Assembly: GCA_016927595.1 (NCBI GenBank)
Contig: JAFGMI010000003.1
Location: 1-64,000, forward strand
Direction: 5' to 3'
DNA: 64,000 bases
Origin: Melioribacteraceae bacterium
GTDB lineage: Bacteria > Bacteroidota > Ignavibacteria > Ignavibacteriales > Melioribacteraceae
The notes beneath the pieces are model-generated. The model was not told the DNA's origin. It worked only from the letters and a program-made list of their open reading frames with translations, and searched no databases. Positions 9,886 to 41,678 of this stretch are shown in pieces. Made by a program: the position numbers and the translations under genes. Each line of letters opens with the position of its first letter. The stretch's first letter is position 1.

Positions 9886-9911
9886 AGCCCGATTTAAGAT
9901 CGGGTTTTTTT
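9886..9911 (+). terminator. Intrinsic terminator after rny, abutting coaE
   Basis: CCCGAT and ATCGGG around a TTAAG loop (stem within 9886-9904) are followed by seven T residues (9905-9911). The coaE ATG begins at 9912, directly after the T-tract. coaE therefore has no room for its own ribosome binding site outside the hairpin. Confidence 0.85.
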
Positions 9912-10520
9912 ATGTCAGGAAAATTTAAAATAGCCGTAACCGGTGGTATAGGAGCCGGGAAATCTGAAGTATGTGCATTCCTTGAATCATCGGGGTATAA
10001 GGTAATTTATGCCGATAAAATTGCGAAAGATTTATTATACAATCACCCGGTTGTTAAGAATAAAATAATCAAATTTTTCGGCAGCGAAGCCTATACTTCA
10101 GACGGTCCCGATAAAACATTTCTAGCCCGGAATGTCTTTTCAAACATGGAAAGTCTTGAAAAGATAAACTCCATTATTCACCCGGAAACCTTAAAGATAA
10201 TTCAAACTGAAACAAATAAAATACTGGAATCGGAAAAATTTGTTTTTGTTGAATCTGCACTGATATTTGAAGCTAAACGTGAAAAATATTTTGACCTGAT
10301 AATACTTGTTGTAGCAGAAAAATCAATCCGGGTAAAACGTACTTCCGGAAATCTGCAAATAACTGAAAGCGAAGTTCTTGAAAGAATGAATATGCAAATA
10401 GATGACGACATTAAAAGACAGCGCGCAGATTTTACGATTGAAAATAATGACTCATTAGATGGATTACATGCAAGGTGCAGACTCGTTTTAGGTATTATTA
10501 AAACTCTGTCTGTCTTGTAA
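9912..10520 (+). CDS. coaE: Dephospho-CoA kinase
   Basis: Catalyses the last step of coenzyme A synthesis, phosphorylating the ribose 3'-OH of dephospho-CoA. The 202 residues match CoaE. The P-loop GGIGAGKS is at about residues 11-18, followed by YADKIAKDLL, IIHPETLK and FVFVESALIFEAKREKYFD, then the lid with RMNMQIDDDIKRQRADF and FTIENNDS. The ATG lies directly behind a terminator T-tract with no Shine-Dalgarno sequence. How it is transcribed and translated is therefore unclear. Confidence 0.92.
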   Translation: MSGKFKIAVTGGIGAGKSEVCAFLESSGYKVIYADKIAKDLLYNHPVVKNKIIKFFGSEAYTSDGPDKTFLARNVFSNMESLEKINSIIHPETLKIIQTETNKILESEKFVFVESALIFEAKREKYFDLIILVVAEKSIRVKRTSGNLQITESEVLERMNMQIDDDIKRQRADFTIENNDSLDGLHARCRLVLGIIKTLSVL

Positions 10521-10532
10521 TTTTAGAATCTC

Positions 10533-10540
10533 TATCTTTG
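10533..10540 (+). promoter_or_regulatory. Candidate -7 promoter element for proline dehydrogenase
   Basis: TATCTTTG matches the Bacteroidetes -7 consensus TAnnTTTG exactly, in the 78-base gap before the proline dehydrogenase gene. The best upstream TTG (10515-10517) is only 15 bases away, shorter than the 20 seen at the tRNA promoters, so support is partial. Confidence 0.35.
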
Positions 10541-10598
10541 TAATATTGATTTACATTTTGTGCAGGACTAATTTTGTGTATTAAATTGTGAGGAAAAA

Positions 10599-11498
10599 TT
10601 GAAAGCTGTTAATAATCTGATTGTAGGGCTGGTTAAATCCATGCCGAAACAGGTTGTGCATATTTTTGCAAAAAAGTATATCGCGGGAGAAAAGCTTGAC
10701 GATGGTGTAAAGGTTGTTAAAGAATTGAATTCAAAAGGTATTTGTGCTACACTGGATGTACTGGGAGAATCGGTTAGAACGAAAGCCGAAGCCAGAGAAG
10801 CTAAGGAAGATTGCCTGAAAGTTCTGGATGCGATTGAAGAAAACAAACTCGATTCCAATTTGTCAATCAAACCGACACAGCTAGGACTGGCAATTGATCG
10901 CGAATTTGCATTTGATCTATTAAAAGAAATTCTCGACCGGGCAAAGAAATACGATAACTTTGTGAGAATCGATATGGAAGATTCCAGTGTTACGGATGAT
11001 ATATTCTGGTTCTATGAGCAGGCTAAAACTTACTACCCGAAAGTTGGAATAGTCGTCCAGTCCTACCTAAAAAGAAATATCGATGATGTGAAAAGGCTTA
11101 GTCTGAATGGAACAAATTACAGACTTTGCAAGGGAATATATGTTGAACCGGAGGAGATCGCATTCAAGGACAGACAAGAGGTTAGAGATAAGTATGTAGA
11201 AGCTCTGACTATAATGCTCAGGAACGGTAACTATGTCGGTATTGCCACACATGATGATTATCTAATTGATGCAGCGTATAAACTAATTGATGAATTAAAA
11301 ATCCCGAAAGACAAGTTTGAGTTTCAAATGCTGTACGGAGTTAAAGAAAGTCTTCGCGATAAGATTAACGCAGATGGTCATAAAGTACGTGTTTACGTTC
11401 CATACGGGGATCATTGGTATGCATATTCCATCAGAAGACTGCAGGAAAATCCGCAGGTTGCCTGGTATATTACAAAAAGTATCTTCTCTCTGAATTGA
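10599..11498 (+). CDS. Proline dehydrogenase (single-domain)
   Basis: FAD enzyme that oxidises proline to pyrroline-5-carboxylate and passes electrons to the quinone pool. The 299 residues fit the short monofunctional PRODH rather than bifunctional PutA. The barrel shows ATLDVLGESV, SIKPTQLGLA, VRIDMEDSSV, YRLCKGIYVEP, GIATHDD, FQMLYGV, and the substrate-binding tail YSIRRLQENPQV. It starts with TTG at 10599, preceded by GAGGA. No pyrroline-5-carboxylate dehydrogenase is in the window. Its TGA overlaps the tsaD ATG by one base, so the two are probably translated together although functionally unrelated. Confidence 0.92.
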   Translation: MKAVNNLIVGLVKSMPKQVVHIFAKKYIAGEKLDDGVKVVKELNSKGICATLDVLGESVRTKAEAREAKEDCLKVLDAIEENKLDSNLSIKPTQLGLAIDREFAFDLLKEILDRAKKYDNFVRIDMEDSSVTDDIFWFYEQAKTYYPKVGIVVQSYLKRNIDDVKRLSLNGTNYRLCKGIYVEPEEIAFKDRQEVRDKYVEALTIMLRNGNYVGIATHDDYLIDAAYKLIDELKIPKDKFEFQMLYGVKESLRDKINADGHKVRVYVPYGDHWYAYSIRRLQENPQVAWYITKSIFSLN

Positions 11499-12511
11499 TG
11501 AATGTATTAGGGATTGAAACATCTTGTGACGAGACTTCCGTTGCTGTTATTTCGAACGGGCAGCTTAAGGTAAATCTTATTTCTTCTCAGGATTTTCATA
11601 TTAAGTTCGGCGGTGTGGTACCCGAGTTATCAAGCAGGGCACATCTGCAGACTGTTACACCTCTGATGAAAGAAGCACTTCATCAGGCAATGCTAGAATT
11701 AAAAGAGATCGAGGTAATTGCAGCAACCGCTGGTCCCGGTTTGATTGGAGCATTATTAGTTGGTCTTACCTTTGCAAAAGGTTTATGCTATTCGCTGGAT
11801 AAAACCTTTATACCAGTAAATCACATCGAGGGGCATATTTTCTCCGGATTCTTAATGGAAGACAAACCGCAATATCCCTATTTGTGTCTTGTAGTATCAG
11901 GAGGGCACAGTCTTCTCCTGATAGTTGAAGATGATCTGAGAATAAAAAAACTTGGAGGCACAATTGACGATGCTGCAGGCGAAGCTTTTGATAAAGCTGC
12001 TAAAATGATGGGGCTAGGTTATCCCGGTGGTCCGAATATTCAAATGTATGCTGAGAAAGGTAATCCCGATGCAATAAAATTTCCCATAGCACAACTGAAA
12101 AATAAATACGATTATTCATTCAGCGGATTAAAAACCGCTTTGCTTAGATTTATACAAAAGGAGTATGAGGGAAAAGTGCCGGAAAGTGATCTTCCGGATC
12201 TGGCGGCTTCATTTCAGAAGACTATTTCCGATACACTTACAACTAATGTTATCAAAGCATTAAATGAATATAAGGTTAAATCTATTTCTGTTGTCGGAGG
12301 AGTTGCTGCTAACAGATATATACAAAATGCTTTTCATGAGATAGCGGAAAGTCGTAATTTGAAATTAGTTATACCTGACCAGCAGTATTGCGGTGATAAT
12401 GCAGCAATGATAGCCTACAGAGGGATGCTGCTGCATCTTAATAAGAAAAAGTATAATCTTGGTTTTAATGCCTTTCCGTCAATATCCGAGGGGATGTTTT
12501 CCGATGGATAA
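11498..12511 (+). CDS. tsaD: tRNA N6-adenosine threonylcarbamoyltransferase
   Basis: Transfers threonylcarbamoyl to A37 of ANN-decoding tRNAs, with TsaB and TsaE. The product has 337 residues, the same as E. coli TsaD. It shows the ASKHA-fold start LGIETSCDETSVAV, the metal-binding HIEGH, VSGGHSLLL, the core GEAFDKAAKMMGLGYPGGP, and C-terminal VVGGVAANRYI and CGDNAAMIAYRG. The ATG at 11498 overlaps the preceding TGA. The frame is open further upstream, but that part lies inside proline dehydrogenase. The mltG start lies 8 bases inside its 3' end. Confidence 0.96.
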   Translation: MNVLGIETSCDETSVAVISNGQLKVNLISSQDFHIKFGGVVPELSSRAHLQTVTPLMKEALHQAMLELKEIEVIAATAGPGLIGALLVGLTFAKGLCYSLDKTFIPVNHIEGHIFSGFLMEDKPQYPYLCLVVSGGHSLLLIVEDDLRIKKLGGTIDDAAGEAFDKAAKMMGLGYPGGPNIQMYAEKGNPDAIKFPIAQLKNKYDYSFSGLKTALLRFIQKEYEGKVPESDLPDLAASFQKTISDTLTTNVIKALNEYKVKSISVVGGVAANRYIQNAFHEIAESRNLKLVIPDQQYCGDNAAMIAYRGMLLHLNKKKYNLGFNAFPSISEGMFSDG

Positions 12512-26928: not shown

Positions 26929-27498
26929 ATGAAAAAAACGGTTCTGGATTATACACTAAAAATTAGGCTGCCTTTTCTTTTGTTCGTTGTTGCGGTATCT
27001 TTTTTACTTACATTTTACATCTCGAGATCTGAACGCGACGGTGTTGGTTATATGCCCGAACAGCCCATAAAATATTCTCATAAACTGCACGCCGGAGATC
27101 TTGCTATCGATTGCCAGTATTGTCATGTGGGAGTTACTAAAGGGCGTCATGCTCTCGTTCCGTCTGTAAATATTTGCATGAACTGTCACACAGTGGCAAG
27201 AAAGGACAAACCTGAGATTGTTAAATTAACTCAGTATTATGAAGAGGGTAAGCCCCTTCCGTGGAAAAGAATACATAAAATTCCTGAATATGCATATTTT
27301 AATCACAGTGTGCATGTGAATGTCGGTATAGATTGCGAAAGTTGCCATGGCAATTTGCGTGAAATGGAAGTTGTGGAACAGATTAAACCATTCACAATGA
27401 CGGCGTGTCTCGATTGTCACAGAGATCCTCAGAAAGAAATTCCTTATCTTGAAAAGGTAAACAAGGGCCCTGAAAATTGCGCAGCGTGCCACAGATAG
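26929..27498 (+). CDS. actA: Alternative complex III pentaheme cytochrome (ActA)
   Basis: Periplasmic electron-transfer subunit of ACIII, the menaquinol:cytochrome c oxidoreductase that replaces the bc1 complex. The 189 residues have an N-terminal membrane anchor (about 13-32) and five c-heme motifs: CQYCH (62), CMNCH (83), CESCH (136), CLDCH (160) and CAACH (184). Five hemes match ActA of characterised ACIII. A Shine-Dalgarno GGGAAAAG precedes the ATG. It is the first gene of the respiratory operon. Confidence 0.93.
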   Translation: MKKTVLDYTLKIRLPFLLFVVAVSFLLTFYISRSERDGVGYMPEQPIKYSHKLHAGDLAIDCQYCHVGVTKGRHALVPSVNICMNCHTVARKDKPEIVKLTQYYEEGKPLPWKRIHKIPEYAYFNHSVHVNVGIDCESCHGNLREMEVVEQIKPFTMTACLDCHRDPQKEIPYLEKVNKGPENCAACHR

Positions 27499-27695: not shown

Positions 27696-30600
27696 ATGAC
27701 TCCGGATAAAACAGATCTTAAAGAACACTATTGGAAAAGTATCAAGGAATACTATAAAGACCCTGAGGTTTTGCAGGCTAAGTTGAATGAGTTTGCAAAG
27801 GGGGTTACAGATGAGTTCTCTGTCGATAAATTAAATGGATTATCAAGACGTAGATTTATTGCTTTGCTTAGTGCTTCTGCAGCTCTTGCGGCTACTGCCT
27901 GTTCCGACTACAGGGACAAAGGTGAAATAATTCCTTACACAAATCGGCCGGAAGGCGTTTTGCCCGGTAAACCTGATTACTATTCAAGTTTCGTAAACGA
28001 TAAAAGTGTTCTTATTAAGGTAAGGGAGGGTCGACCGATAAATATTGTAGGCAACCCGGACCATCCCGTTTATAAAGGTAAATTGGATGCTCAAACACCC
28101 GCAACTCTTTTAAATCTATATGATCCTGAAAGACTTAAAGAGCCGACGAAGGATAAACTAAAAATTGACTGGGCAAAAGCGGATGCAGAAATAATTGATG
28201 CTTTAACCAAGGCTGCTGCAGATGGTAAAGAAATAGCTCTAATTGGAGACAGAATCACATCGCCATCTGTTATGAAACTGTTTGCAGATTTCAAGAAAAA
28301 ATATTCGACAGCCAGGGTTTATAGTTATAAACAAATCAGCGATGAAAATAAGCGAATTGCCTGGGATCAATGCTTCGGTACCAGAAATATTCCATCAGTT
28401 AAATTGAATAATGCCAATGTTATACTGGCAATTGAAAGTGATTTCCTGGGTCGTGAAGGAAATACTATCGAAAAAACCAGAATGTTTGCTGAAAGTCGGG
28501 ATATTATTAATAATGGTAAAATGAGCAGACTTTATGCAGCCGAAGGTTCAATGAGTCTTACAGGTATGAATGCAGACTACAGACTGAGAATAAGATCTGA
28601 CTATCATCACAATTTTATTTTGAGTTTGATTAATGAACTGATTGGTAAAGGCATGACAGCTAATGCCGACAAAGAATTACGAGATATGGTCTCGTCATTT
28701 CCGCTGGATGATTTCGTTAAACGACATGGTCTTGATGCATTAAAGATAAGCTATTTGGTTAAGGATCTTTTGAATGATCCGTCGGGTTCTATTGTTCTTG
28801 GAGGCGAATCTCTACCTGTTGAAGTCCATACTGCAATCAACCTGCTGAATAATTTACTCGGTAATGATAATTTGTTTGATTATTCATCTGTTGAATTGGA
28901 TCATCAGCCTTTGTCTACTGATAAAGAATTGGATGAATTCATTGAAAGATCTTTAAGTGGAGAAGTTGGCGTTATAATTAATTTCGGAGTTAATCCGGTT
29001 TATCATCTGCCTTCATCGCTGGGTATAGAAAAAGTTTTTTCGGAAGTAAATACGACTATCAGCATTGTTGAAAGCGACAATGAAACATCTGCATTGTCGA
29101 ATTACGTTTTACCTTCCAGTCACGCACTCGAAAGCTGGGGCGATAATTTTACACGCTCCAATATTTATGAATTGCAGCAGCCGGTAATTTCTCCGATATT
29201 CAACACTCGCCAGAAAGAAGCTGTTTTGCTTTCATGGATTAACGGAATCTCCGAAGCGTATTCAGACGATGCTTTTAAAGAGTATTTGATGGATGTCTTT
29301 GAAGAGAATGTGTTCATTACTCAAAATCCTGCCGTGGATTTTAAGAGTTATTGGTATAATTCGCTGCATAACGGATTTGCACACATTAAATCTGGAAGAT
29401 TACAGCCCGGGACATTTAAATTCAATCCTGTCAGAAAAACTACGAATGCTGATGATTACGATTATGTTTTACATCTGACGCCTAATTATTTTATCGGCGA
29501 CGGTCGTTACGCAAATAATGGCTGGCTGCAGGAAATGCCTCATCCGGTTTCAAAGATTTCATGGGATAATTACGCTGCGGTGTCTCCATCATCAGCTAAA
29601 AAGCTTGGTGTTGAAAACGATGATCTTGTAAAGATTAAGACGGCAAGTAGTTTTCTTGAAATACCCGTTTTTATTCAACCGGGAATGGCTGACGGACAGA
29701 TTTCAATCGAACTGGGTTATGGAAGAACTGTAATAGGAGATGTTGGTAAAAATTCAGGTTTTAATGCTGCAGTGCTGCAGGAATCATTATCATCTGTACT
29801 GATCGCCGGCGTTACTTTAGAAAAAAGCAGCGGCAGTTATAAATTAGTTTCAACACAAGAACATCATTCACTGGATGACGATTCCGTAAAAGACTTTCAT
29901 AAAATGCGGCATATTATTCAGGAAGGGACTTTCAAAAAATATAAAGAAGATCCCGGATTTCTTCACGAGGAGAAACATAAATTAAAAGGTATTACGCGGG
30001 AGCATAAGTATGAAGGTCTGAAATGGGGGATGTCGATTGATCTTAACAAATGTATATCCTGCGGCAGCTGCGTTTCTGCCTGCAATGTGGAGAATAATAT
30101 ACCGGTAGTTGGTAAAGATCAGGTTGAACTCGGCAGGGAAATGCACTGGATTAGAATAGACAGGTATTATTCAGGGACACCGGACGAACCGGAAGTCAGC
30201 AATCAGCCGATGCTTTGTCAGCACTGCGACAACGCGCCGTGTGAGAATGTATGTCCGGTTAATGCTACCAATCATAGTCCCGACGGACTTAACCAGATGG
30301 CTTATAACAGGTGTGTAGGGACACGTTATTGTGCGAATAACTGTCCGTATAAAGTGAGGAGATTTAACTTCTACAATTTCAGGGATCATTTTGCTGATGC
30401 ATATTACCAAAATGAGCTGAGTTACTTAGCGAATAATCCTGAGGTAACAGTGCGTTCACGCGGTGTTATGGAAAAATGCACTTTCTGCGTTCAGAGGATC
30501 ATGGACGCACGGGAGGAAGCTATCCGGGAAGGAAGAGAAATTAAAGGTAGCGATGTAGTAACTGCATGTCAGTCTGTATGTCCTGGCAATGCAATCGTAT

Positions 30601-30743
30601 TCGGTGATATTAATGATCCTGAATCTGAGGTTTCAAAATACAGAACACATGAACTGGGATACCATGTTTTAGAAGAATTATATGTCAAACCAAACGTAAC
30701 TTATATAGCTAAACTTAGAAATACTCATGCGGAGGAAGCTTAG
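27696..30743 (+). CDS. actB: Alternative complex III iron-sulfur subunit (ActB)
   Basis: Large periplasmic subunit of ACIII, related to molybdopterin oxidoreductases fused to a ferredoxin domain. The 1015 residues carry a twin-arginine signal ([20 protein letters not shown], about 50-70), a molybdopterin-type domain without an evident metal ligand, and a C-terminal ferredoxin domain (about 780-990). The latter has 15 cysteines in four groups: [35 protein letters not shown], and CTFC with CQSVC. This equals three [4Fe-4S] clusters and one [3Fe-4S], as in known ACIII. Export by Tat fits tatC upstream. Confidence 0.95.
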
Positions 30744-32110
30744 TGAGTACTATTGATTTCACACGTGAGCTGGCAGTTGTTGAAGGGCGTCCCCCTTTAA
30801 GAGAGATAGACGATATTATTTCCAAACCTCTTGAAACCAGGCCTGATAAGAAGTATTACATCGCGTTGTCGATAACATTAACCATGCTTGGTATTGGAGC
30901 CATTGCTCTTCTGCTTTCTTTCTACTATGGGACAGGACTATGGGGAAACAACAATCCGGTTGGATGGGGCTTGCCTATTGTAAACTTTGTTTTCTGGGTC
31001 GGTATTGGTCACGCAGGCACTCTAATTTCTGCAATATTATTTTTATTAAGACAAAGATGGCGTAACGGTATTGCGAGATTTGCAGAAGGTATGACCATTT
31101 TTGCCGTTATGACTGCCGGTATTTTTCCTCTTATTCACGTTGGTCGACCCTGGCTCGCTGGTTATCTGCTTCCTTATCCTAATCAGCACTCCATCTGGGT
31201 AAATTTTACTTCACCTCTGTTATGGGATGTATTTGCTGTTTCTACTTACTTTACAGTTTCATTCGTGTTCTGGTATGTCGGGTTGATACCCGATTTCGCA
31301 ACATTAAGAGATCGCACTACTAACAAAATTAAAAAAGTGATTTACTCGGTAACCAGCCTGGGATGGAGACATTCCAACCGGCACTGGCAGCATTATGAAA
31401 TGGTTTATTTAATACTTGCCGGATTTGCAACTCCGCTGGTACTATCGGTTCATACAATTGTAAGTTTCGATTTTGCAGTTTCAATAATTCCCGGATGGCA
31501 TACAACTATCTTCCCTCCGTATTTTGTTGCCGGCGCCGTATTTTCAGGTTTTGCCATGGTGCAGAATGTATTGATCTTCATCAGAAAGATTTTTAATTAT
31601 GAACATATTATAACTCTGGACACACTTGAGCGAATGAATAAAATTATGCTGCTTACCGGGTCTTTGGTGGGGTATGCGTATGCTATGGAGTTTTTTATAG
31701 CCTGGTACAGCGGGGTGCAGCCGGAACAGTTTGCATTCCTTAACAGGGCTTTCGGACCTTATGCATGGGCTTACTGGATTATGGTATCATGCAATGTATT
31801 ATTCCCACAGCTTTTCTGGATTAAGAAAATACGCAGACACATACCTGTTATGTTTGTAATTGCAGTCCTTATTAACGTGGGGATGTGGTTCGAGAGATTT
31901 GTTATTACCGTTACTTCTTTATCGAGAGACTACTTGCCTTCCAGCTGGGCATATTACAAACCCACACTGGTAGACGGTGCTATTTTACTGGGCAGTTTCG
32001 GATTCTTTTTTACGTTCTTACTTTTGTTCACTAAAACACTGCCTGTGGTTTCGATTGCAGAAGTCAAAGCTGTTGTAGAAGGTTCGCAGCCTTCACATGG
32101 AGAACATTAA
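30743..32110 (+). CDS. actC: Alternative complex III membrane subunit (ActC, NrfD-like)
   Basis: Quinol-binding membrane subunit of the NrfD/PsrC family. The 455 residues start at GTG overlapping the actB stop. About ten membrane helices are visible, beginning [20 protein letters not shown]. Family features are the loop [38 protein letters not shown], and [21 protein letters not shown]. His and Asp residues in these loops probably form the quinol site by homology. Confidence 0.94.
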
Positions 32111-32112
32111 TT

Positions 32113-33252
32113 ATGAATGATAAAATTTTATACGGTTATACAGGCGTTTTCGATTCGCCTGATGAAATAATTCGTGCGGCAGATAAAACTGCTGAGGAAG
32201 GGTACAAAAAATTTGATGTAAATACACCTTATCCCGTCCACGGAATGGACAAAGCGATGAAGCTGCCACCATCAAAACTTGGCTATGCAGCCCTGGTATT
32301 CGGTCTTTCAGGTACTGTTTCAGCACTTTTATTGATGTTCTGGATTTCCGTTATAGAATATCCTATAGTTATAGGCGGTAAACCATTTTTTGCTTTTCCA
32401 GCATTTGTACCTGTAATATTTGAAGTAACCGTGCTTGCAGCTTCAATTGCAACTGTTGTGACTATGATAGCTGTATTTTTTAAATTCCCAAATTTAAGCC
32501 ACCCTTTGCACGACACAGAATACATGAAAAAAGTATCATCGGATAAATACGGGCTTTGTATTCAGGCGGAAGATGAAAATTTTAACGAGAATAATGTTAA
32601 GGGGTTTCTTGCTGGTCTCGGTGCTAAAGATATTTCACCTGTATATTACGACAGCGAAGAAATATCGGTAAAACACGTACTGCTGGAACCTAAATTTATC
32701 GGAATCCTGATCGTTGCAGCTGTTGTTACTTCGGGAACGGTTTATTTCGGGTTAAACAAACTAATGTTTATGGTGCCTTTCAACTGGATGGTTGATCAGG
32801 AGAAAACTGTTCCTCAGGAAGCATCGACGTTTTTCGCCGATGGGTTTGCAATGCGTCCGCCGGTAAATGGCACCGTTATGCGCGGCACACTACCTTATCA
32901 ATTTAAAGGTAATCCGGAAGATGCTGGTAAGTTTCTGAAAAATCCGTTGCCCCAAACCGAAGAAAATTTTACACTCGGCAAAATGAAATATGATATTTAC
33001 TGTAGCCCATGTCATGGTTATTTCGGTGAAGGTGACAGTCGTCTCAGAGGTCAGTTTCCGAATCCACCAAGTCTTCATTCCGAAAAATTACGTAACTGGT
33101 CCGACGGTAGTATTTATCATGTTATAACCGATGGACAGAATATAATGCCTTCATATGAAACACAGCTTACGAGACAGGAAAGATGGGCTACGGTACTATA
33201 TATAAGAGCATTACAACGATCGCTAAACGCTAAGGAGTCTGATCTAGAATGA
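32113..33252 (+). CDS. actD/actE: Fused ACIII subunit: ActD (DUF3341) plus ActE-type cytochrome c
   Basis: A 379-residue protein that joins two ACIII subunits usually encoded separately. Residues about 1-190 are ActD: a DUF3341-type cytoplasmic domain (VFDSPDEIIRAADK, FDVNTPYPVHGMDKAM) with two membrane helices (about 57-80 and 95-123), then HPLHDTEYM. A third helix (about 198-218) crosses to the periplasm. Residues about 245-379 are a monoheme cytochrome c with CSPCH at 297 and a Met ligand in NIMPSYE, as in ActE. The third helix replaces the lipid anchor of separate ActE. The reading frame is continuous with no sign of frameshift. The actF start overlaps its stop. Confidence 0.9.
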   Translation: MNDKILYGYTGVFDSPDEIIRAADKTAEEGYKKFDVNTPYPVHGMDKAMKLPPSKLGYAALVFGLSGTVSALLLMFWISVIEYPIVIGGKPFFAFPAFVPVIFEVTVLAASIATVVTMIAVFFKFPNLSHPLHDTEYMKKVSSDKYGLCIQAEDENFNENNVKGFLAGLGAKDISPVYYDSEEISVKHVLLEPKFIGILIVAAVVTSGTVYFGLNKLMFMVPFNWMVDQEKTVPQEASTFFADGFAMRPPVNGTVMRGTLPYQFKGNPEDAGKFLKNPLPQTEENFTLGKMKYDIYCSPCHGYFGEGDSRLRGQFPNPPSLHSEKLRNWSDGSIYHVITDGQNIMPSYETQLTRQERWATVLYIRALQRSLNAKESDLE

Positions 33253-34439
33253 GTTCAGAAGAAACAAATATCGGTTATAGTAAAAAAGAATTACCGGGAA
33301 GCCTCGGTAAAATCGGATTCGCCATACTTGGAATCGGATTGGTTGTGGTAATTGTAAGTTTTTTTGTAGATCACACGAGAGCTGCATTTAATAATTTAAT
33401 CATGCTGATGTTTTTAACAAGTGTCGGTGTCGGCGGGCTGTTTCTGATTGCTCTTGAATATATTGCAGGCGCTGTTTGGAGTACACCGTTCCGAAGAGTA
33501 ATTGAAATAATTACCGGTATTGTTATTCTGCTTCCGGTTATTGCCGTGCCGGTTTATCTTAATCTGCATGATCTGTTTCACTGGACACATGAAGAGGTTG
33601 TGCAGGGTGATTACAGCCTTGAATCAAAATCAGGATATTTAAATGTTTCGTTCTTTACAATAAGAGTTGTAGTTTTCTTTGCTCTTTGGATATTGTTTTA
33701 TCTATTGCTTAGAAAAAATTCTTTGAGTCAGGATGTTACAGGCGACCAGCTTTTAACTAAGAAAAATATAAGACTTTCAGCTGTTTTTATGCCCGTCTTT
33801 GCAGTTACAATCACATTCTCATCAATCGACTGGATAATGAGTCTGGAACCTCACTGGTTCTCAACCATTTTCGGAGTATATTACTTCTCCGGTACGGTAC
33901 TGGCTGCTTTAGCTGCCGGGACTTTAGCTATTATCATGCTGAACGAAAAGGGTTACTTAACGAAGGGCTTGGTAAAAGATCACTACTACAGTCTGGGAGC
34001 GCTTCTTTTTGCATTTACTAACTTCTGGGCTTATATAGCATTCAGTCAGTTTCTCCTTATCTGGTATGCAAATCTGCCGGAAGAAACTTTCTGGTTTTTG
34101 CAGAAGTGGGAAGGCAGCTGGATGATAATCTCAGTTGGATTGATTTTTGTACATTTTATTGTACCTTATTTCGGACTTTTATCACAACCGTCAAAGATGG
34201 ATCCCAAAAGACTTAAATTAATGTCGATATGGATTCTTTTTGCGCATTGGTATGACTTATACTGGCTTGTTATGCCAACATTCAGTAAGGAAGAAGCGGT
34301 ATTCGGCTGGATGGAAGTCGCATTCCCGATTCTTACTGTCGGTATAGTAATCCTGGCTTTTGTTATAATATCCAGAAAGAAAAATTTAATACCTGTTGGT
34401 GACCCGAAATTGAAGAGGGGTCTCGATTTCAGATTATAA
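33249..34439 (+). CDS. actF: Alternative complex III membrane subunit (ActF)
   Basis: Second NrfD-like membrane subunit of ACIII. The 396 residues show about ten helices, starting GKIGFAILGIGLVVVIVSFF, with TPFRRVIEIITGIVILLPVIAVPVYL, SSIDWIMSLEPHWFSTIFGV, AFTNFWAYIAFSQFLLIWYANLPEE and IVPYFGLLSQ, all ActF landmarks. The ATG overlaps the previous stop by 4 bases. The protein probably takes part in coupling or quinol chemistry with ActC; its exact role is debated. Confidence 0.93.
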   Translation: MSSEETNIGYSKKELPGSLGKIGFAILGIGLVVVIVSFFVDHTRAAFNNLIMLMFLTSVGVGGLFLIALEYIAGAVWSTPFRRVIEIITGIVILLPVIAVPVYLNLHDLFHWTHEEVVQGDYSLESKSGYLNVSFFTIRVVVFFALWILFYLLLRKNSLSQDVTGDQLLTKKNIRLSAVFMPVFAVTITFSSIDWIMSLEPHWFSTIFGVYYFSGTVLAALAAGTLAIIMLNEKGYLTKGLVKDHYYSLGALLFAFTNFWAYIAFSQFLLIWYANLPEETFWFLQKWEGSWMIISVGLIFVHFIVPYFGLLSQPSKMDPKRLKLMSIWILFAHWYDLYWLVMPTFSKEEAVFGWMEVAFPILTVGIVILAFVIISRKKNLIPVGDPKLKRGLDFRL

Positions 34440-34444: not shown

Positions 34445-35386
34445 ATGAATATGGGAAAAGGAAAAATCGAAGCTGAAATGAAATACCGGGAACTACTGAA
34501 TAATCCAATCCGATTATTCGGATTCGCTTTCCCTTATTTCTTTGTTATAATTCTTCTTGCCGGAATCTTTTATGTTAAAAATCTTGATACTATCTCATTT
34601 AATAGTATTCCGATATCATATATTGATTCATTAAACATTGACAGGGATATTGAACAGAAGAGGGGAGGAATAATGCCGGCTGTTGAACTTAACCGGGTTT
34701 TGAATCCTACGGAAGAAATGATCAGAAAGGGAAAAGAATTATATGATGCCAACTGTCAATCATGTCATGGAAGCGGGGGTAAAGGCGATGGTCCGGCTGG
34801 TGTTGCTATGAATCCTAATCCGCGAAATTTTCTTGATACTAATGGCTGGACTATAGGAAGAACATTTCCTGATTTATATAAAACATTGCAAGAGGGAATA
34901 ATTAAAAACGGTATGGCAGCTTATGAATATATGCCGCCCTCAGACAGAATTGATATAATACTTTACTTAAGAACCTTTACCGATTTTCCGGAGATCACAA
35001 ACGATCAATTATCGCAGCTAGATGCAACTTATAATTTGTCAGCCGGCGCCACAATGCCGAATCAGATACCGGTAAAAAAATCTGTTAAAATATTGGTCTC
35101 GGAATTTAACGGTTCGGATACTTTTTCTGAATTATTATTCTACATTAAATCTGATGGAAGCCAAGTGGGAGCACGGTTGCTCAATGAATATTCTTATTCC
35201 CCCGAAAGAATTGCCGGGCAGGTATTAAAGGGTGAAATTTCTATGAGACTGGACGAATTCATAAAAACAGTGAGCCATGATCCTTTAGCATCAGGCTTCA
35301 AAACCTCTGTTGTCTCATTGAGTAAATCGGAATGGAATGAGTTACATAAGTTCTTATTAGAGTCCAGAAATTTGAGAAAATCTTAG
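34445..35386 (+). CDS. Membrane-anchored monoheme cytochrome c
   Basis: A 313-residue protein with one N-terminal membrane helix (about 24-44) and a cytochrome c domain with CQSCH near residue 104 and a probable Met ligand in YEYMPPSDR (about 160). The C-terminal 120 residues are unlike known cytochromes. It sits between actF and the SCO gene. Because the oxidase subunit II here lacks the fused heme-c domain of caa3 oxidases, this protein could carry electrons from ACIII to CuA. That role is inferred from position. Confidence 0.87.
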   Translation: MNMGKGKIEAEMKYRELLNNPIRLFGFAFPYFFVIILLAGIFYVKNLDTISFNSIPISYIDSLNIDRDIEQKRGGIMPAVELNRVLNPTEEMIRKGKELYDANCQSCHGSGGKGDGPAGVAMNPNPRNFLDTNGWTIGRTFPDLYKTLQEGIIKNGMAAYEYMPPSDRIDIILYLRTFTDFPEITNDQLSQLDATYNLSAGATMPNQIPVKKSVKILVSEFNGSDTFSELLFYIKSDGSQVGARLLNEYSYSPERIAGQVLKGEISMRLDEFIKTVSHDPLASGFKTSVVSLSKSEWNELHKFLLESRNLRKS

Positions 35387-35397: not shown

Positions 35398-36165
35398 ATG
35401 AGAAAGATCAATTTAAGTTATTTATTTGTTATACTTTACATCTCTCTATTCCAGACTTTTATTCTTGGGCAAGTTAGTGATCTGGAAGTTGGAATAGATG
35501 AAAAGTTGGGCGATTATTTACCACCTGACGCAACATTTACAACATCTGAAGGTGATACTGTTGCTCTCGGCGATTTAATCGATACTCCCGTGCTCCTGGC
35601 ATTGGTTTATTATGAATGTCCGGGTATATGCAGCCCTCTTTTGACTGAACTCGGCTGGGTGGCAAATAAGGTTGATCTTATACCGGTAAAAGATTTTAAG
35701 GTAATCACATTAAGTTTCGATCATCATGAAACGCCAGCAACTTCTTCAAAATGGAAAAAGAATTATTTGGACGGACTGAATAATGAGTTTCCTGAAGATG
35801 CATGGGTTTTTTTAACAGGTGATAGTCTCAATATTAAAAAAGTTACAGATGCTGTCGGATTTTATTTCAGACCTGACCGGGACGAGTTTGTCCATGCAGG
35901 TGCAGTCATCACAATATCACCTAAAGGAAAAATCTCAAGATACTTGTTTGGAACGAAATTTAATCCTTTTGATGTTAAGATGGCGTTACTGGAAGCACAA
36001 AGTGGAAAAACAAGCCCTACAATTTCAAAGGTTCTTCAATTCTGTTTTAGTTACGATCCGGAAGGTAGAACCTATACACTGAATATCACCCGCATTATTG
36101 GTAGTATAATGCTTCTTAGTATCGGAATATTTTTGGTCGTATTATTAATTAAAAAGAAAAAATAG
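35398..36165 (+). CDS. SCO1/SenC/PrrC-family copper chaperone
   Basis: Thioredoxin-fold protein that delivers copper to the CuA site of oxidase subunit II. The 255 residues have a signal peptide (about 1-24), the copper-binding CPGIC motif in YYECPGICSPLL (about 77-81), the distal His in FVHAGAVITISPKG (about 164), and a C-terminal membrane helix (about 228-250) before KKKK. The C-terminal anchor is less usual than an N-terminal one. It precedes the oxidase genes by 22 bases, which fits an assembly role. Confidence 0.91.
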   Translation: MRKINLSYLFVILYISLFQTFILGQVSDLEVGIDEKLGDYLPPDATFTTSEGDTVALGDLIDTPVLLALVYYECPGICSPLLTELGWVANKVDLIPVKDFKVITLSFDHHETPATSSKWKKNYLDGLNNEFPEDAWVFLTGDSLNIKKVTDAVGFYFRPDRDEFVHAGAVITISPKGKISRYLFGTKFNPFDVKMALLEAQSGKTSPTISKVLQFCFSYDPEGRTYTLNITRIIGSIMLLSIGIFLVVLLIKKKK

Positions 36166-36186: not shown

Positions 36187-37827
36187 ATGGCTAACGGAAC
36201 AATAGCCGCAAATGGAAAAACATTTTACGAGGAAGGAACCACAAAAGCTAAGACAGGCTTGACAGCCTGGATTTTCAGCACTGATCATAAAAGAATCGGC
36301 TTGATGTACTTATCTGCTATTTCAATATTCTTTTCGGCTGCTGTAATTATAGCATTGCTGATGAGGCTGGAATTAATTGCCCCCGGTAAAACAATTATGG
36401 AACCGCAGACATACAATAGTCTTTTTACGCTTCATGGCGTTATTATGATTTTTCTTTTTATCATTCCCGGAATTCCGGCTGTATTTGGAAACTTCTTCCT
36501 GCCATTGCAGATAGGGGCTAAAGATGTGTCGTTTCCACGATTAAACCTGCTTAGTTTCTGGATTTATATTATCGGAGCTTTTCTTGTGCTGCTTTCGCTT
36601 GCGCTGCCCGGCGGACCGATTGATACAGGCTGGACGTTTTATATACCTTATTCAGTGCGCTCCGGAACAAATATTTCACTGGCAATCTTTGCAGCTTTTG
36701 TGTTGGGTTTTTCATCTATACTTACCGGATTAAATTTTATAACAACTGTCCACAGGTTGAGAGCACCAGGCATGTCATGGTTCAAGATGCCGCTGTTCGT
36801 TTGGGCTACTTATGCAACAGCCTGGATTCAGATTATCGCTACACCGGTGATAGGAATTACAATATTGCTGGTTATAATAGAAAGATTTTTCGGAGTCGGG
36901 ATATTTGATCCGGCTCTCGGTGGTGATCCAATCCTATATCAGCATCTGTTCTGGATCTATTCGCATCCTGCTGTTTATATCATGATACTCCCTGCTATGG
37001 GAGTTGTCTCGGAAATTATACCCACATTCGCCCGGAGAACAATTTTCGGTTACCGTGCAATTGCTATGTCGTCTCTGGCGATTGCCTTTGTTGGATATCT
37101 GGTCTGGGCTCATCACATGTTTACAAGCGGAATAAGCGATGCTGCAAGGATTATTTTTTCGCTACTGACATTTATTGTAGCATTGCCCAGCGGTGTTAAA
37201 GTATTCAACTGGGTTGCTACAATGTATAAAGGCTCTATCGATCCCAAACCCCCCTTCCTATGGGTTATGTCATTCATCGTATTGTTCTCGATAGGCGGAT
37301 TAACGGGACTTGTACTCGGATCGCTGGCAACGGATATTCATTTACATGATACATATTTTGTCGTGGCTCATTTTCATTATGTAATGTTCGGCGGAACGGG
37401 AACAATATTTTTTGCTGCTCTCTACTACTGGTTTCCGAAAATGTTCGGCAGATTATATAATACGAAGCTTGCAAATATTGGGGTTGCATTATTTTTTATA
37501 GCATTTAATCTTCTGTATTTCCCGAAATTTATTCTCGGATATATGGGAATGCCCAGAAGATACTATGATTACCTTTCGGAATTTACAAGTCTACAGCTGA
37601 TATCTACTATCGGCTCTTGGGTGATGGCTATTGCTTTAATAATTGTGATAGGTAATATAGTGCACGGTATTTTCAGAGGACCTAAATCGACATCGAATCC
37701 ATGGGGAGGAGTGACGTTAGAATGGCATACTTCTTCACCGCCGCCGTTGGAAAACTTCCATGAAATTCCAACGGTTACGCATGAACCTTATGATTTCAGT
37801 CAACTTGAGGAAATGAAGAATGAGTAA
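36187..37827 (+). CDS. ctaD: Cytochrome c oxidase subunit I (A2-type)
   Basis: Catalytic subunit with low-spin heme, heme-copper centre and proton channels. The 546 residues have twelve membrane helices. Visible ligands are FTLHGVIMIFLF (low-spin heme His), YSHPAVY at 258-264 (CuB His260 and crosslinked Tyr264), AHHMFTSG (CuB His pair) and HDTYFVVAHFHYV (heme His residues). The Tyr-Ser pair before HPAVY replaces the Glu of A1 enzymes, which classes this as A2, as in Rhodothermus and Thermus caa3 oxidases. AAAGGAG precedes the ATG. Confidence 0.97.
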   Translation: MANGTIAANGKTFYEEGTTKAKTGLTAWIFSTDHKRIGLMYLSAISIFFSAAVIIALLMRLELIAPGKTIMEPQTYNSLFTLHGVIMIFLFIIPGIPAVFGNFFLPLQIGAKDVSFPRLNLLSFWIYIIGAFLVLLSLALPGGPIDTGWTFYIPYSVRSGTNISLAIFAAFVLGFSSILTGLNFITTVHRLRAPGMSWFKMPLFVWATYATAWIQIIATPVIGITILLVIIERFFGVGIFDPALGGDPILYQHLFWIYSHPAVYIMILPAMGVVSEIIPTFARRTIFGYRAIAMSSLAIAFVGYLVWAHHMFTSGISDAARIIFSLLTFIVALPSGVKVFNWVATMYKGSIDPKPPFLWVMSFIVLFSIGGLTGLVLGSLATDIHLHDTYFVVAHFHYVMFGGTGTIFFAALYYWFPKMFGRLYNTKLANIGVALFFIAFNLLYFPKFILGYMGMPRRYYDYLSEFTSLQLISTIGSWVMAIALIIVIGNIVHGIFRGPKSTSNPWGGVTLEWHTSSPPPLENFHEIPTVTHEPYDFSQLEEMKNE

Positions 37828-38449
37828 TAACGTGCAGACAATTGAAACTCATGGAAATGTACACAGGGATGATGTCGGTGCCAAAATGGGTATGTGGCTG
37901 TTTCTGTTCACAGAGGTGCTGCTGTTCGGCGGTATGTTCCTGATTTATGCTGTATACAGGTTTCAATATCCCGATCAGTTCCATATTGCGGGTATGGAAC
38001 TTAGTACAACAATTGGTACAATTAATACTATTATACTTCTTACGAGCAGCCTGACAGTAGCATTATCGATTACAGCATTGCAGAAGGGCAACAAGTTATT
38101 GTCGGTTTCCATGCTCTCGCTTACGTTATTTTTTGCTCTTTTTTTTATGGTGAATAAATACTTTGAATGGTCAGCAAAATTTAGTCACGGATTGTACCCT
38201 GGTTCGGATGAAATGCTTGCAAAACAAAACGGTGAAATTCTTTTTTTCGGTCTTTACTTTGTTATGACCGGACTTCATGGTTTTCATGTTCTGATCGGTA
38301 TAGTGTTATTATCTGTTATTCTTGCATTCATCATTAAAGATAAAATTACTCCAAATAATTTTGTTAAACTGGAAAATTCCGGATTGTACTGGCACCTAGT
38401 TGATCTTATCTGGATTTTCCTGTTTCCGTTATTCTATTTAATTCAGTAG
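37820..38449 (+). CDS. ctaE: Cytochrome c oxidase subunit III
   Basis: A 209-residue membrane subunit overlapping ctaD by 8 bases. It has about five helices: MGMWLFLFTEVLLFGGMFLIYAV begins the core, followed by TIILLTSSLTVALSITALQ, FFGLYFVMTGLHGFHVLIGI and the C-terminal LYWHLVDLIWIFLFPLFYLI, the classical subunit III signature. It stabilises subunit I and binds lipid. Confidence 0.95.
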   Translation: MSNNVQTIETHGNVHRDDVGAKMGMWLFLFTEVLLFGGMFLIYAVYRFQYPDQFHIAGMELSTTIGTINTIILLTSSLTVALSITALQKGNKLLSVSMLSLTLFFALFFMVNKYFEWSAKFSHGLYPGSDEMLAKQNGEILFFGLYFVMTGLHGFHVLIGIVLLSVILAFIIKDKITPNNFVKLENSGLYWHLVDLIWIFLFPLFYLIQ

Positions 38450-38456: not shown

Positions 38457-38753
38457 ATGGACAATCATCAGGAACATGATAAACAACATATTACTCCTTA
38501 CAGTCTGTATGTACTGATTTGGGTAGCCTTGATTTCTTTAACGTCGATTACTGTTACCGTTGCAGGCATTAGTCTGGGCAACTATACTCTCGCCGTAGCA
38601 TTATTTATAGCGGCGGTAAAGTCGGCTTTAGTAATAAATATATTTATGCATATCAAGTTCGATCAGCCGATTTTTAAGGTTTTCTTACTTTTAAGCGCTT
38701 TGACGCTGCTTGTAATTTTTATTTTAACATTTTTTGATTTCACATATCGTTGA
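38457..38753 (+). CDS. ctaF: Cytochrome c oxidase subunit IV (prokaryotic type)
   Basis: A 98-residue protein with three predicted membrane helices (about 16-36, 41-61, 70-92), containing AAVKSALVINIFMHIKFD, the motif shared by small prokaryotic oxidase subunit IV proteins. It lies 7 bases after ctaE and 9 bases before subunit II. The role is structural. Confidence 0.88.
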   Translation: MDNHQEHDKQHITPYSLYVLIWVALISLTSITVTVAGISLGNYTLAVALFIAAVKSALVINIFMHIKFDQPIFKVFLLLSALTLLVIFILTFFDFTYR

Positions 38754-38762: not shown

Positions 38763-39395
38763 ATGTTTCCCGGACCAACCAGTCATGTTGAAACTGTTGA
38801 TTTCGTATTTTTATATATAGTAGGCATATCCGTAATACTTCTTCTGGGTATAACCGCTGTAATGATTTATTTCGTGTTTAAGTTTAACAGAAAGAAAGGA
38901 CACAAACCTAAAGATATCCACGGGAGTATACTTCTTGAAACGATATGGATTGCAATTCCTACTGTACTTGTCCTGTCGATGTTTTATTTCGGCTATATTG
39001 GTTATGAGGAATTGAGAGATATCCCTGACGATGCAATGCAGGTTGAAGTTATAGCAAGAATGTGGGAATGGGATTTCAGGTATGAGAACGGAAAGGTTAC
39101 AAAAGAACTTTACGTTCCTCTGAGCAAACCGATAAAACTCGTAATGGAATCTGTTGATGTGAACCATTCTTTTTATATCCCTGCTTTTCGTATTAAAGAA
39201 GATGTAATAGCCGGGAAGAAAAATGTTCTGGGATTTACTCCCTCCAGAATAGGCGAATACGATGTTGCCTGTGCGGAATACTGCGGCCTTCAGCACTCGA
39301 TGATGTATACCAAAGTAATTGTAATGCCGGAACGCGAATTTGAAGAATGGTACGCAAATACAGAAGAAACAGCAGTTGAACCGGAAAACAAATAA
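38763..39395 (+). CDS. ctaC: Cytochrome c oxidase subunit II (CuA, no heme c)
   Basis: Receives electrons at the binuclear CuA centre. The 210 residues have two membrane helices (about 12-35 and 55-78) and a cupredoxin domain with MWEWDFRYENG, VNHSFYIPAFRIKEDVIAGK and the CuA ligands in ACAEYCGLQHSMM (two Cys, His, Met; about 173-182). The protein ends shortly after this domain, so the cytochrome c extension of caa3-type subunits is missing. The gene order I-III-IV-II is unusual but complete. Confidence 0.96.
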   Translation: MFPGPTSHVETVDFVFLYIVGISVILLLGITAVMIYFVFKFNRKKGHKPKDIHGSILLETIWIAIPTVLVLSMFYFGYIGYEELRDIPDDAMQVEVIARMWEWDFRYENGKVTKELYVPLSKPIKLVMESVDVNHSFYIPAFRIKEDVIAGKKNVLGFTPSRIGEYDVACAEYCGLQHSMMYTKVIVMPEREFEEWYANTEETAVEPENK

Positions 39396-40307
39396 GTGAT
39401 ATCTCTTAGTTTAAATATAAAATTAGGTATGATGATAAAAAGGTATGTCAATATATACCTTGAACTGGCCAAAATAAGAATAACTTTTTTTGTAGCAGTA
39501 TCAGCTTCTTTAGGTTATATACTGGCAGCAGGAAGCATACTGCCTCAGATGATATTCCCAACGATCGGTGTTTTTCTGCTTGCATCAGGTTCATCGGCAG
39601 TAAATCATTTCCAGGAAAGCAATTACGACAGATTAATGAACAGGACAAGAAACAGACCAATACCCAGAGGAGATATTTCACCACTGGGTGCAGTAATTTA
39701 TGCCATCATTCTGATAATGCTTGGATTCTTACTGCTGTTTGTATCTGCTGACATTATTTCTGTTTTGCTTGGTTTGACTGCTCTCATATGGTATAATTTT
39801 ATTTATACTCCATTGAAAAGAATTAATTCTCTTGCTGTTATTCCGGGTTCACTTATCGGCGCTATACCTCCTGTTATTGGATGGGCAGCTGCAGGAAGGA
39901 ACATTATGGAACCGGAAATTCTTTCGTTGGCTATGTTTTTCTTTATCTGGCAGATACCTCACTTCTGGTTATTACTTATTATGCACGGGGAGGAATATGT
40001 GAAAGCGGGATATCCTTCATTAACACAAGTTTTTAATAAAGGTCAACTCAGCAGAATCACATATGTCTGGATAATCTCTCTTGCAGTGAGTAGTCTGCTT
40101 ATACCTTTATTCAGTTTGTCTGCAACTTTTTTAACCGGGTTTGTCCTCTTTATTGCCAGTGCTTATCTGGTATATTCATTGAAAAATATTTTATACGATT
40201 TCGCAGACAGGCTTGTTATAAGAAGAGCATTTATGCTAATAAATATTTACGTATTGTGTGTAGTAGCGATTTTGATAATCGATAAACTGATATTATCAGA
40301 AATTTAG
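39396..40307 (+). CDS. ctaB: Protoheme IX farnesyltransferase
   Basis: UbiA-family membrane enzyme that adds farnesyl to heme b to make heme O, the precursor of heme A for the oxidase. The 303 residues show LAKIRITFFVAVSASLGYILA, the aspartate-rich NHFQESNYDRLMNRTRNRPIPRG, and YTPLKRINSLAVIPGSLIGAIPPVIGWAA. The frame opens with GTG directly after the ctaC stop. ATG codons at 39429 and 39432 behind TTAGGT are plausible alternatives and would shorten it by 11 or 12 residues. No heme A synthase (ctaA) is in the window. Confidence 0.94.
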   Translation: MISLSLNIKLGMMIKRYVNIYLELAKIRITFFVAVSASLGYILAAGSILPQMIFPTIGVFLLASGSSAVNHFQESNYDRLMNRTRNRPIPRGDISPLGAVIYAIILIMLGFLLLFVSADIISVLLGLTALIWYNFIYTPLKRINSLAVIPGSLIGAIPPVIGWAAAGRNIMEPEILSLAMFFFIWQIPHFWLLLIMHGEEYVKAGYPSLTQVFNKGQLSRITYVWIISLAVSSLLIPLFSLSATFLTGFVLFIASAYLVYSLKNILYDFADRLVIRRAFMLINIYVLCVVAILIIDKLILSEI

Positions 40308-40319: not shown

Positions 40320-41678
40320 ATGGATTTTTTAGATAACCTGGTGCTTCCCCAGTCCTCTCATCATATGATATTGTTAAAATATCTGCTGGTATTAACGTAT
40401 CTGATTTTTATCCCGTATTTAAGTGTGCTGATCGGGACAAATATTCTTTCGGTTTATTTCAATCGTAAGGCAGATCAAACAGGCGAGAGATCCTACTATA
40501 ATTTTACCAGAGAGATTATTGATATAGTTACTTTTAATAAAGTGTCTTTCATCGCATTGGGTTTTGTTCCATTGGTAAGTGCGGCACTTTGTTATGCCCA
40601 GCTCCTGCATTTATCAGAAGCCGATGTTACAGGATATTTGGTTATTTCACTTATCATGATTTCAGCAGGATTTATACTTCTATTTTCCTATAAAAACAGT
40701 TTTCATCTGAAGGATTTGGTTAATGCAGCAACGTCTTCCCATAACAATGAATATAATATTAAACATGATGTGGAAGTAATAGGATCGAGAGCGGAAAGAG
40801 CCAACAAGAAATACGGCGTTTATTCACTCGTATTATTCGCGTTATCTGCTTATGTTTTTATCGGTGCTGTTAAATATGCCTCTGATCCGCTTAGCTGGGG
40901 ATCAGTTCACTCGATCCTGGATATCTTACTATCATTTAATACATTCGTCGGATTCCTGTACTTCACTGTTGCGGCGATTTTTATTACATCGGCGGTTATA
41001 TTGTACATTTTTTCCGGACGGAACGATGAAGCTTCAGTAGTTGATGAGACGGTTAAAATTATTGCCCGTAAAGTTTCGTTAAGCCTGGGCTTAGTATCTG
41101 CCATTCTTTTGCCATTGTTCCTCTTGCTGAATACTGTTTTGATCCCGGAATCAGGACTTAATAACGCATCATTTCTTTTACTTATAGTAATGCTCTTGAC
41201 TGTATTGCTTTCATCAGGTTATTTTTATCTGATGATAAGGAATTCAGACTTGCACTATTCATCGTTCGTTTTGTTTTTAGTTATAGTTTTTGTAATTGCT
41301 GCAACTGTTAAAGATCAGTATGCCTTCGATACATCTACACAAAATCAGTTTATTAAGCTAACTGAGAATTATACCGAGTATCAGAAAAATCTTAAAGAAG
41401 AACTCGGACTTTCAGTCGAAACAATAAGCGGTGCAGATATTTATAACGGCAGGTGTATTGCATGCCATCAGTTCGAAAATAAACTTGTCGGTCCGCCATA
41501 CAATGATATACTGCAGAAATATGAGGGTAAAAAGGAACAGCTGGTACAATTTATTCTTAATCCTGTAAAAGTGGATCCCAACTATCCGCCGATGCCTAAT
41601 CAGGGTTTAAAACCTAAAGAGGCTGAAGCAGTTACCGATTATATTATTAAGGTTTACGAAGAACAATACAAGAAGTGA
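40320..41678 (+). CDS. Polytopic membrane protein with C-terminal cytochrome c domain
   Basis: A 452-residue protein, last gene of the respiratory operon. Hydrophobicity suggests about eight membrane helices (near 16-44, 74-97, 102-123, 166-187, 201-232, 247-270, 282-305, 314-330). A soluble linker and a small cytochrome c domain follow (about 365-452) with CIACH near residue 379 and YPPMPNQG supplying a Met ligand. The N-terminal part shows SSHHMILLKYLLVLTYLIFIPYLSVLIGTN and is not a family I can name with confidence. It could be an additional redox module docking on the oxidase or ACIII; that is inference. Confidence 0.85.
   Translation: MDFLDNLVLPQSSHHMILLKYLLVLTYLIFIPYLSVLIGTNILSVYFNRKADQTGERSYYNFTREIIDIVTFNKVSFIALGFVPLVSAALCYAQLLHLSEADVTGYLVISLIMISAGFILLFSYKNSFHLKDLVNAATSSHNNEYNIKHDVEVIGSRAERANKKYGVYSLVLFALSAYVFIGAVKYASDPLSWGSVHSILDILLSFNTFVGFLYFTVAAIFITSAVILYIFSGRNDEASVVDETVKIIARKVSLSLGLVSAILLPLFLLLNTVLIPESGLNNASFLLLIVMLLTVLLSSGYFYLMIRNSDLHYSSFVLFLVIVFVIAATVKDQYAFDTSTQNQFIKLTENYTEYQKNLKEELGLSVETISGADIYNGRCIACHQFENKLVGPPYNDILQKYEGKKEQLVQFILNPVKVDPNYPPMPNQGLKPKEAEAVTDYIIKVYEEQYKK

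Follow-up and report, generated by a model that had tools for sequence, protein, structure and literature searches.

A cytochrome bd-like membrane protein with a cytochrome c domain, a possible linker between alternative complex III and heme-copper oxidase in Ignavibacteria

The gene that closes an operon for alternative complex III (ACIII) and a heme-copper oxidase in the window, by which we mean the whole analysed stretch of 64,000 nucleotides, encodes a membrane protein of 452 aa, here labelled T. By its modelled fold and by profile comparison, the membrane domain of T is a member of the cytochrome bd superfamily that lacks the heme-ligand histidines, and it is followed by a class I cytochrome c domain. 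We consider it reasonably probable that T is a ligand-less second subunit of this superfamily that anchors and wires the cytochromes of complex III to CuA. The wider proposal, that a bd subunit lost its heme ligands and was turned into a cytochrome c linker of heme-copper oxidase and ACIII, with copies near nitrous oxide and nitrite reductases, we hold tentatively, as a nearly even call. If true, it would mean that two phylogenetically unrelated oxygen-reductase superfamilies have been joined, one of them giving a heme-free scaffold to the other.

Gene T, its operon and its cytochrome c domain

A sequence-only reading of the window had described a membrane protein encoded at this place. The frame stands at exactly 40320–41678 on the + strand, begins with ATG in the window's ORF list and has relatives in 53 of 58 related genomes, so it is not a chance frame; its reverse complement, read in frame 1, has stops throughout. 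The same reading had put the gene at the end of an operon, after the oxidase and heme farnesyltransferase genes, and T indeed starts 12 bases past CtaB, at the end of a one-strand series that runs ActA-ActB-ActC-ActDE-ActF-monoheme cytochrome-Sco-CoxA-CoxC-CoxD-CoxB-CtaB-T. The names ActB, ActC, ActF, Sco, CoxC, CoxD and CtaB are presumed family assignments. The features referred to below are the following.

26929–27498, +: ActA, 189 aa, five CxxCH motifs, without an extra monoheme domain
27696–30743, +: presumed ActB of ACIII
30743–32110, +: presumed ActC
32113–33252, +: fused ActDE, one CxxCH, named after M. roseus
33249–34439, +: presumed ActF
34445–35386, +: ActE2 (label used here), a further monoheme cytochrome c subunit
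35398–36165, +: presumed Sco copper chaperone
36187–37827, +: CoxA, heme-copper oxidase subunit I
37820–38449, +: presumed CoxC, subunit III
38457–38753, +: presumed CoxD, subunit IV
38763–39395, +: CoxB, subunit II, with a CuA motif and without CxxCH
39396–40307, +: presumed CtaB heme farnesyltransferase, ending 12 bases before T
40320–41678, +: gene T, bd-type membrane domain plus class I cytochrome c, 452 aa
40320–41354, +: membrane domain, residues 1–345, eight helices, predicted CydA fold (structure and sequence)
40407–40409, +: F30, site of the helix-1 invariant histidine in bd-like second subunits (alignment)
40959–40961, +: Y214, site of the second invariant histidine (alignment)
41430–41645, +: class I cytochrome c domain, residues 371–442 (Pfam, structure)
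41454–41468, +: CIACH heme c attachment motif, residues 379–383 (sequence)
41592–41594, +: Met425, likely sixth heme ligand (alignment)

A scan for promoters and terminators gave scores close to those of shuffled sequences. When genome contigs were scanned with the single protein T, no match was obtained; a scan with an alignment succeeded and led to 197 confirmed loci. The best 80 of these 197, most of them labelled Ignavibacteria, Melioribacter or similar, make up the collection set used here. In 79 of the 80 loci, with L050 as the exception, no more than 183 bases separate the end of CtaB from the T frame that follows it, and the searched genes keep the same order wherever the contigs extend.

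The C-terminal part of T had been described from the sequence as a cytochrome c tail with CIACH near residue 379, and this description holds: CIACH occupies residues 379–383 and Met425 lies downstream. In Pfam, residues 371–442 of the window protein match PF00034 (E = 1.4e-6) and PF13442 (E = 3.3e-6), and cytochrome c is the sole match of T in NCBIfam. The CxxCH motif is present in T at all 80 loci of the collection set, with C379, C382 and H383 conserved in 80 of 80 aligned sequences and M425 in 78 of 80, the remaining two being gaps. Besides M1, the positions that are invariant in all 80 sequences are C379, C382, H383, G391 and P392, every one of them within the cytochrome c domain. The closest fold is that of c551/c552 (351c, Z 9.8, r.m.s.d. 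2.0, 77 residues), and T thus combines the CxxCH motif, the downstream Met and the fold of a class I cytochrome c.

A membrane domain of the cytochrome bd superfamily

We modelled T with AlphaFold2 from 80 aligned sequences, namely the window protein plus those of every collection locus but L073 (79 of 80), and obtained a mean pLDDT of 89.2 and a pTM of 0.79. The eight membrane helices expected from the sequence recur in the model, at residues 13–54, 74–95, 103–139, 145–187, 206–233, 243–273, 282–308 and 314–339. Its top structural match is the CydA chain 7oy2_C (Z 26.8, r.m.s.d. 3.2, 305 residues), with a second CydA chain, 5doq_A, close by (Z 26.4, r.m.s.d. 2.8, 303 residues), and Foldseek ranks 1–16 are all bd oxidase chains (best E = 1.7e-4). 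After CydA, the next fold to appear is that of NrfD-like subunits of ACIII, with Z values of 18.6 or less. For the count of basic residues, loop sets were picked by us from the model on the assumption of an N-out, C-out topology, and K + R per residue came to 0.171 in the inside-assigned loops versus 0.070 in the others, with the same direction in 80 of 80 rows. Because basic residues are denser in the inside loops of the N-out/C-out topology, the cytochrome c of T is predicted to lie in the periplasm.

Sequence searches with the membrane domain itself were uninformative. Pfam gave scattered matches and no consistent family, the commonest among 45 T members being Tetraspanin (3 of 45, best E = 1e-4), with AA_permease found once (1 of 45, E = 8.7e-6). 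A PDB sequence search with T returned cytochrome c and a weak transporter stretch (E = 0.019), and with the membrane domain alone one chance match. PF01654 has no match in the window T at E ≤ 10, and a sub-threshold match of 16.7 bits in the T relative of genome G003. Compared directly, the profiles of T and CydA gave weak values of E = 0.0068 and 0.0048, and the other membrane families were weaker still (CydB 0.21, CtaB 0.19, and, by hhalign, ActC 0.15 and ActF 0.032, the latter two with fold Z about 18). Because the direct comparison of T with CydA is weak, a bridge through second subunits was needed.

This bridge came from the T membrane-domain profile (A8). Run against 294 genomes of the class, it matched 166, which were split by us into 153 strong and 13 weak matches. 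Twelve of the 13 weak matches are proteins of 368–376 aa (alignment A9), here called second subunits, and 11 of the 12 genes are directly preceded by a gene for a CydA-like protein of 431–441 aa with one CxxCH; at the twelfth locus, L171, the preceding frame runs past the end of the stretch. The three of these first subunits that were scanned with Pfam match PF01654 (E = 2.8e-13, 5.6e-19 and 9.4e-20), and the first-subunit alignment (A10) matches CydA at E = 4.4e-11; the second subunits scanned with Pfam gave no bd family match. T (A8) aligns with the second subunits (A9) with a probability of 98.1 and E = 7e-14 over 298 columns, the second subunits align with CydA at E = 9.7e-5, and T aligns with the first subunits (A10) at E = 4.2e-5. 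The sequence-only reading had left the membrane domain unassigned and proposed a remote-homology and structure search; by that search, through the CydA fold and the profile match to second subunits, the domain is now placed in the cytochrome bd superfamily. A match to a known, unrelated family had been named there as evidence against a redox module: the family found is known, but it is a respiratory one, and its defining ligands are gone from T. Because those ligands are gone, the function of the family is not simply transferable to T.

The thirteenth weak match, in G301 (L165/L193), is a second subunit with a C-terminal cytochrome c, as is the match in G356 (L191), which comes from outside the class; the genes preceding both encode products that match A10 and contain CxxCH. 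In the first subunit beside L191, PF01654 is absent from the Pfam results at E ≤ 0.01, although the A10 profile matches it at 1.9e-89. A sample of the phylum gave matches in 60 of 395 genomes at E ≤ 1e-5, with G356 alone outside the class. In BLASTP against a three-sequence database, the window membrane domain alone matched L193 (2.4e-9), L192 (8e-7) and L191 (1.1e-5), and the whole window T matched L191 at 8.7e-23 over 447 columns. Two loci illustrate the tandem bd-like pairs: L191 of G356 (9094–12025), with CxxCH in both subunits, and L192 of G062 (5190–7670), with a second subunit without cytochrome c in a genome that also has T. The tandem CydA-like pairs with fused cytochrome c probably correspond to the OR-C family (Murali et al. 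2021). The excerpted text of PMC10839748 describes three bd families, OR-C named among them, as differing in subunits and in quinol- and heme-binding sites.

H33 and H195 are invariant in the second subunits (12 of 12) and align with H18 and H187 of the CydA alignment, each conserved in 20 of 20 sequences, which we take to correspond to H19 and H186 of E. coli CydA; both histidines are retained in L165 and, judged by eye, in L191. In T the first position is occupied throughout by F, L or V (80 of 80 sequences, His in 0 of 80; F30 in the window). His occurs at the second position in 6 of 80, the other sequences being variable there (Tyr, Y214, in the window). The best conserved of the other membrane-domain histidines are H15 (74 of 80) and H97 (50 of 80), and Q94 is conserved in 79 of 80. 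Because both invariant histidines are lost, T is predicted to be free of b heme and would then be a bd relative that carries a cytochrome c. The same loss led us to reject an active bd oxidase. The single PF01654 match in the window genome (E ≤ 1) is a full-length CydA on contig C59, so no bd-like first subunit was found to pair with T, and the window ORFs include no CydA-like first-subunit gene in the T operon.

T and the tandem CydA-like pairs are thus alike in fold and full-length homology, and the layout of T, a membrane domain with a C-terminal cytochrome c, is common to the second subunits of L165/L193 and L191. Unlike the pairs, T has lost both histidines, has no adjoining CydA-like gene and is encoded in a heme-copper oxidase operon. 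Among the titles and abstract openings searched there was no description of a heme-less bd relative with cytochrome c, which does not establish its absence from print.

Linkage of T to the oxidase and to ACIII

Among the 294 genomes of the class, 146 of the 147 with a window-type CoxA contain T, by a count compiled from hand-transcribed tables; G246 alone has this CoxA without T. The converse, T without window-type CoxA, is found in G015, G020, G045, G083, G233, G256 and G296. In G083 the T match begins at base 3 of its contig, and the contig piece of G233 (L194) has ActE2, CoxC and T, with CoxA absent. The T frame of G233 (L163/L194), of 420 aa, ends off within the cytochrome c domain, through a frameshift or an assembly error. 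The suggestion from the sequence that T is a redox module tied to the ACIII and oxidase cluster gains from this linkage and from CoxA-less operons, described below, that keep T with ACIII and mostly with CoxC and CoxD.

T occurs without an ActC match (E ≤ 1e-60) in G043, G110, G145, G165, G174, G178 and G233. The contig of G043 starts just ahead of CtaB, and at the G145 locus ActF and ActE2 are present as far as the contig extends. In G165, G178, G174 and G110 (L153–L156), T stands with CoxA–CoxB and an ActE2-like cytochrome at loci that have no Act membrane genes; past T, a Rieske protein and a cytochrome b–cytochrome c fusion are encoded on the opposite strand, identified by Pfam at L153 (Rieske 5.1e-11, Cytochrome_B 6.6e-50, Cytochrom_C 1.4e-25) and assigned by like sequence at the other three. 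Because these four genomes have T and CoxA without Act membrane genes, ACIII is not needed by T, and a strict need was rejected on these loci. Where ACIII has been replaced, T seems to remain with the oxidase.

Further copies lie away from the oxidase. The only T of G048, still counted among the 146, belongs to a nosZ cluster, with CoxA about 0.54 Mb away; this T (L151, 8925–10202) has a cytochrome c and stands at the end of the nosZ–nosD cluster, with neighbours that match nos_propeller (4e-35) and NosD (8.6e-40) in Pfam. A second T of G035 (L149, 8774–10063), also with cytochrome c, adjoins nrfHA, its neighbours matching Cytochrom_C552 (4.4e-174) and NapC/NirT (7.7e-13). The gene after each of the two encodes a small membrane protein, DoxX-like by eye. 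These copies suggest that the T module can serve other reductases, and because they lie at nosZ–nosD and nrfHA they weaken any claim that T is specific to the oxidase.

Operons with ACIII genes and T, without an intact CoxA or any CoxB, were found in G006, G015, G020, G028, G029, G045 and G296 and at locus L050. CoxC-like and CoxD-like genes are kept in seven of these eight, G006 having neither; the CoxD-like frame of G028 was recognised by eye, and COX3 passes the Pfam cut-off in G020, G028 and G015 and falls short of it in G029. In G006, G020, G028, G045 and G296, T stops short of the cytochrome c domain. G015, G029 and L050 keep the cytochrome c despite having no intact CoxA or CoxB, so the losses coincide in five of the eight operons. 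Among the matches listed, and contig ends aside, no cytochrome c-less T occurs outside the CoxA/CoxB-less operons; G003 was rejected as such a variant, its apparent loss being a contig end. A loss tree of 62 rows, with L050 left out and loci whose contigs stop short of CoxA labelled as having it, gave a minimum of three changes for cytochrome c and four for CoxA; G020 and G296 are of one genus. With so few changes on the tree, a correlated loss of cytochrome c and CoxA is beyond statistical test. We read the loss pattern as meaning that the cytochrome c of T would serve CuA, and its anchor ACIII, CoxC and CoxD; the natural cytochrome c-less variants offer a way to tell which half binds what.

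Each of the seven G genomes has one COX1-family gene of 701–715 aa, read as CcoNO (E ≤ 1e-10), and G020, G045 and G296 have a second, of 735–747 aa; in the five genomes with a cytochrome c-less T there is no COX1-family gene (E ≤ 1e-10) beyond those of 701–712 and 735–747 aa. A FixO domain was confirmed in the CcoNO of G045 (COX1 + FixO), and in G045 only. At L146 of this genome (3161–17000), one series of genes on a single strand comprises ACIII genes, CoxC, CoxD, a T without cytochrome c, a CcoI-like ATPase and CcoNO, an apparent ACIII–cbb3 operon. At L050 (8806–9936), a 74-residue CoxA-matching frame (43.9 bits) stands alone between ActE2 and CoxC, Sco, CoxB and CtaB have no match, and T keeps its cytochrome c; the oxidase core appears to have been lost recently at this locus, unless the assembly is faulty. 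The residue at the start of helix 1, His15 (window 40362–40364), is His in 74 of 80 sequences and Asn in 6 of 80. In four aligned cytochrome c-less T this position is Arg, Arg, Arg and Glu (Glu in L147), and His15 may work with the cytochrome c domain.

Proposed role and comparison with known systems

In the mechanism that we propose, the eight-helix domain of T would be both the membrane anchor and the contact to an ACIII–CoxC–CoxD assembly. The periplasmic cytochrome c would take single electrons from the ActE-type cytochromes of complex III and hand them to the CuA of CoxB (the window CoxB itself carries no cytochrome c); in one lineage the donor would perhaps be the Rieske/cytochrome b–c complex instead. 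T would thereby be an extra subunit in the ACIII–oxidase assembly. CoxB is without CxxCH in 70 of 77 cases among the 80 loci and has one in the other seven. These seven, in which CoxB has its own C-terminal CxxCH despite the cytochrome c on T, are L040, L055, L063, L068, L100, L106 and L108.

The alternative to which we give most weight, though we still think it unlikely, is that T serves the ACIII–CoxC–CoxD membrane unit chiefly in structure or assembly and that its cytochrome c is secondary. The persistence of T in eight operons without intact CoxA/CoxB, seven of them with CoxC/CoxD-like genes, and the absence of the cytochrome c from T in five of the eight favour this alternative, but besides M1 all the invariant positions of T fall in the cytochrome c domain, and T occurs without Act membrane genes at L153–L156. 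A membrane domain that binds quinol or moves protons, and so couples ACIII and oxidase, seems improbable. In favour, both CydA and NrfD-like proteins work at quinone sites, and after CydA the fold of T is nearest to that of the NrfD-like subunits of ACIII (Z about 18); against this, the OR-C family of bd enzymes probably receives its electrons from cytochrome c and not from quinol. The excerpted text of PMC10839748 says the same of the OR-N family, so that related bd families speak against a quinol site in T.

We regard it as very unlikely that T is still a subunit of a bd-type oxygen reductase, with unusual heme ligands and an unlinked partner. The homology to bd-like second subunits is clear and some polar residues are conserved (H15 in 74 of 80, Q94 in 79 of 80), but both invariant histidines are lost, the operon has no CydA-like gene, and the single PF01654 match of the genome is a full-length CydA on another contig. 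Least probable of all, in our judgement, is an ordinary c551/c552 redox partner, as in M. roseus, with the helices as an irrelevant tether: the domain does match c551/c552 (351c, Z 9.8), and the M. roseus papers, in the text available from them, speak of a class I soluble cytochrome (PMC3534657, PMC5492636), but the eight helices are conserved, have the predicted bd fold and are retained without the cytochrome in five genomes.

Set beside known systems, our preferred reading of T as an anchored linker to CuA has partial counterparts. According to the excerpted text of PMC5928083, the linking cytochrome c domain of R. marinus is on oxidase subunit II, and in F. johnsoniae an extra cytochrome c domain is on ActA. 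Like the caa3 IIc domain of the former and the ActA domain of the latter, T would be a monoheme c between ACIII and oxidase; unlike both, as they are described there, the window domain is on a separate, bd-related protein, and CoxB and ActA of the window are without one. T would be a third way of wiring ACIII to CuA, after a CoxB- or ActA-borne cytochrome c. Cytochrome cy is anchored by a single N-terminal helix, whereas T is anchored by an eight-helix domain with a predicted bd fold and has its cytochrome c at the C-terminus. The likeness, as far as the excerpted text of PMC8361435 describes a membrane-anchored cytochrome cy in the Rhodobacter CIII–CIV supercomplex, is that T too is a membrane-anchored cytochrome c, encoded with complex III and an oxidase. 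MROS_0033 of M. roseus, at the end of the same cluster, is called a class I soluble cytochrome c551/c552 in passages of PMC3534657 and PMC5492636, and the latter reports it as reliably identified only in aerobically grown cells. Equated by position alone in those passages, MROS_0033 is very probably the orthologue of T. It is described there as soluble, whereas its relatives at that position are predicted integral membrane proteins, and we suggest that an expressed respiratory protein of Ignavibacteria, so far taken for a soluble carrier, is a subunit integral to the membrane.
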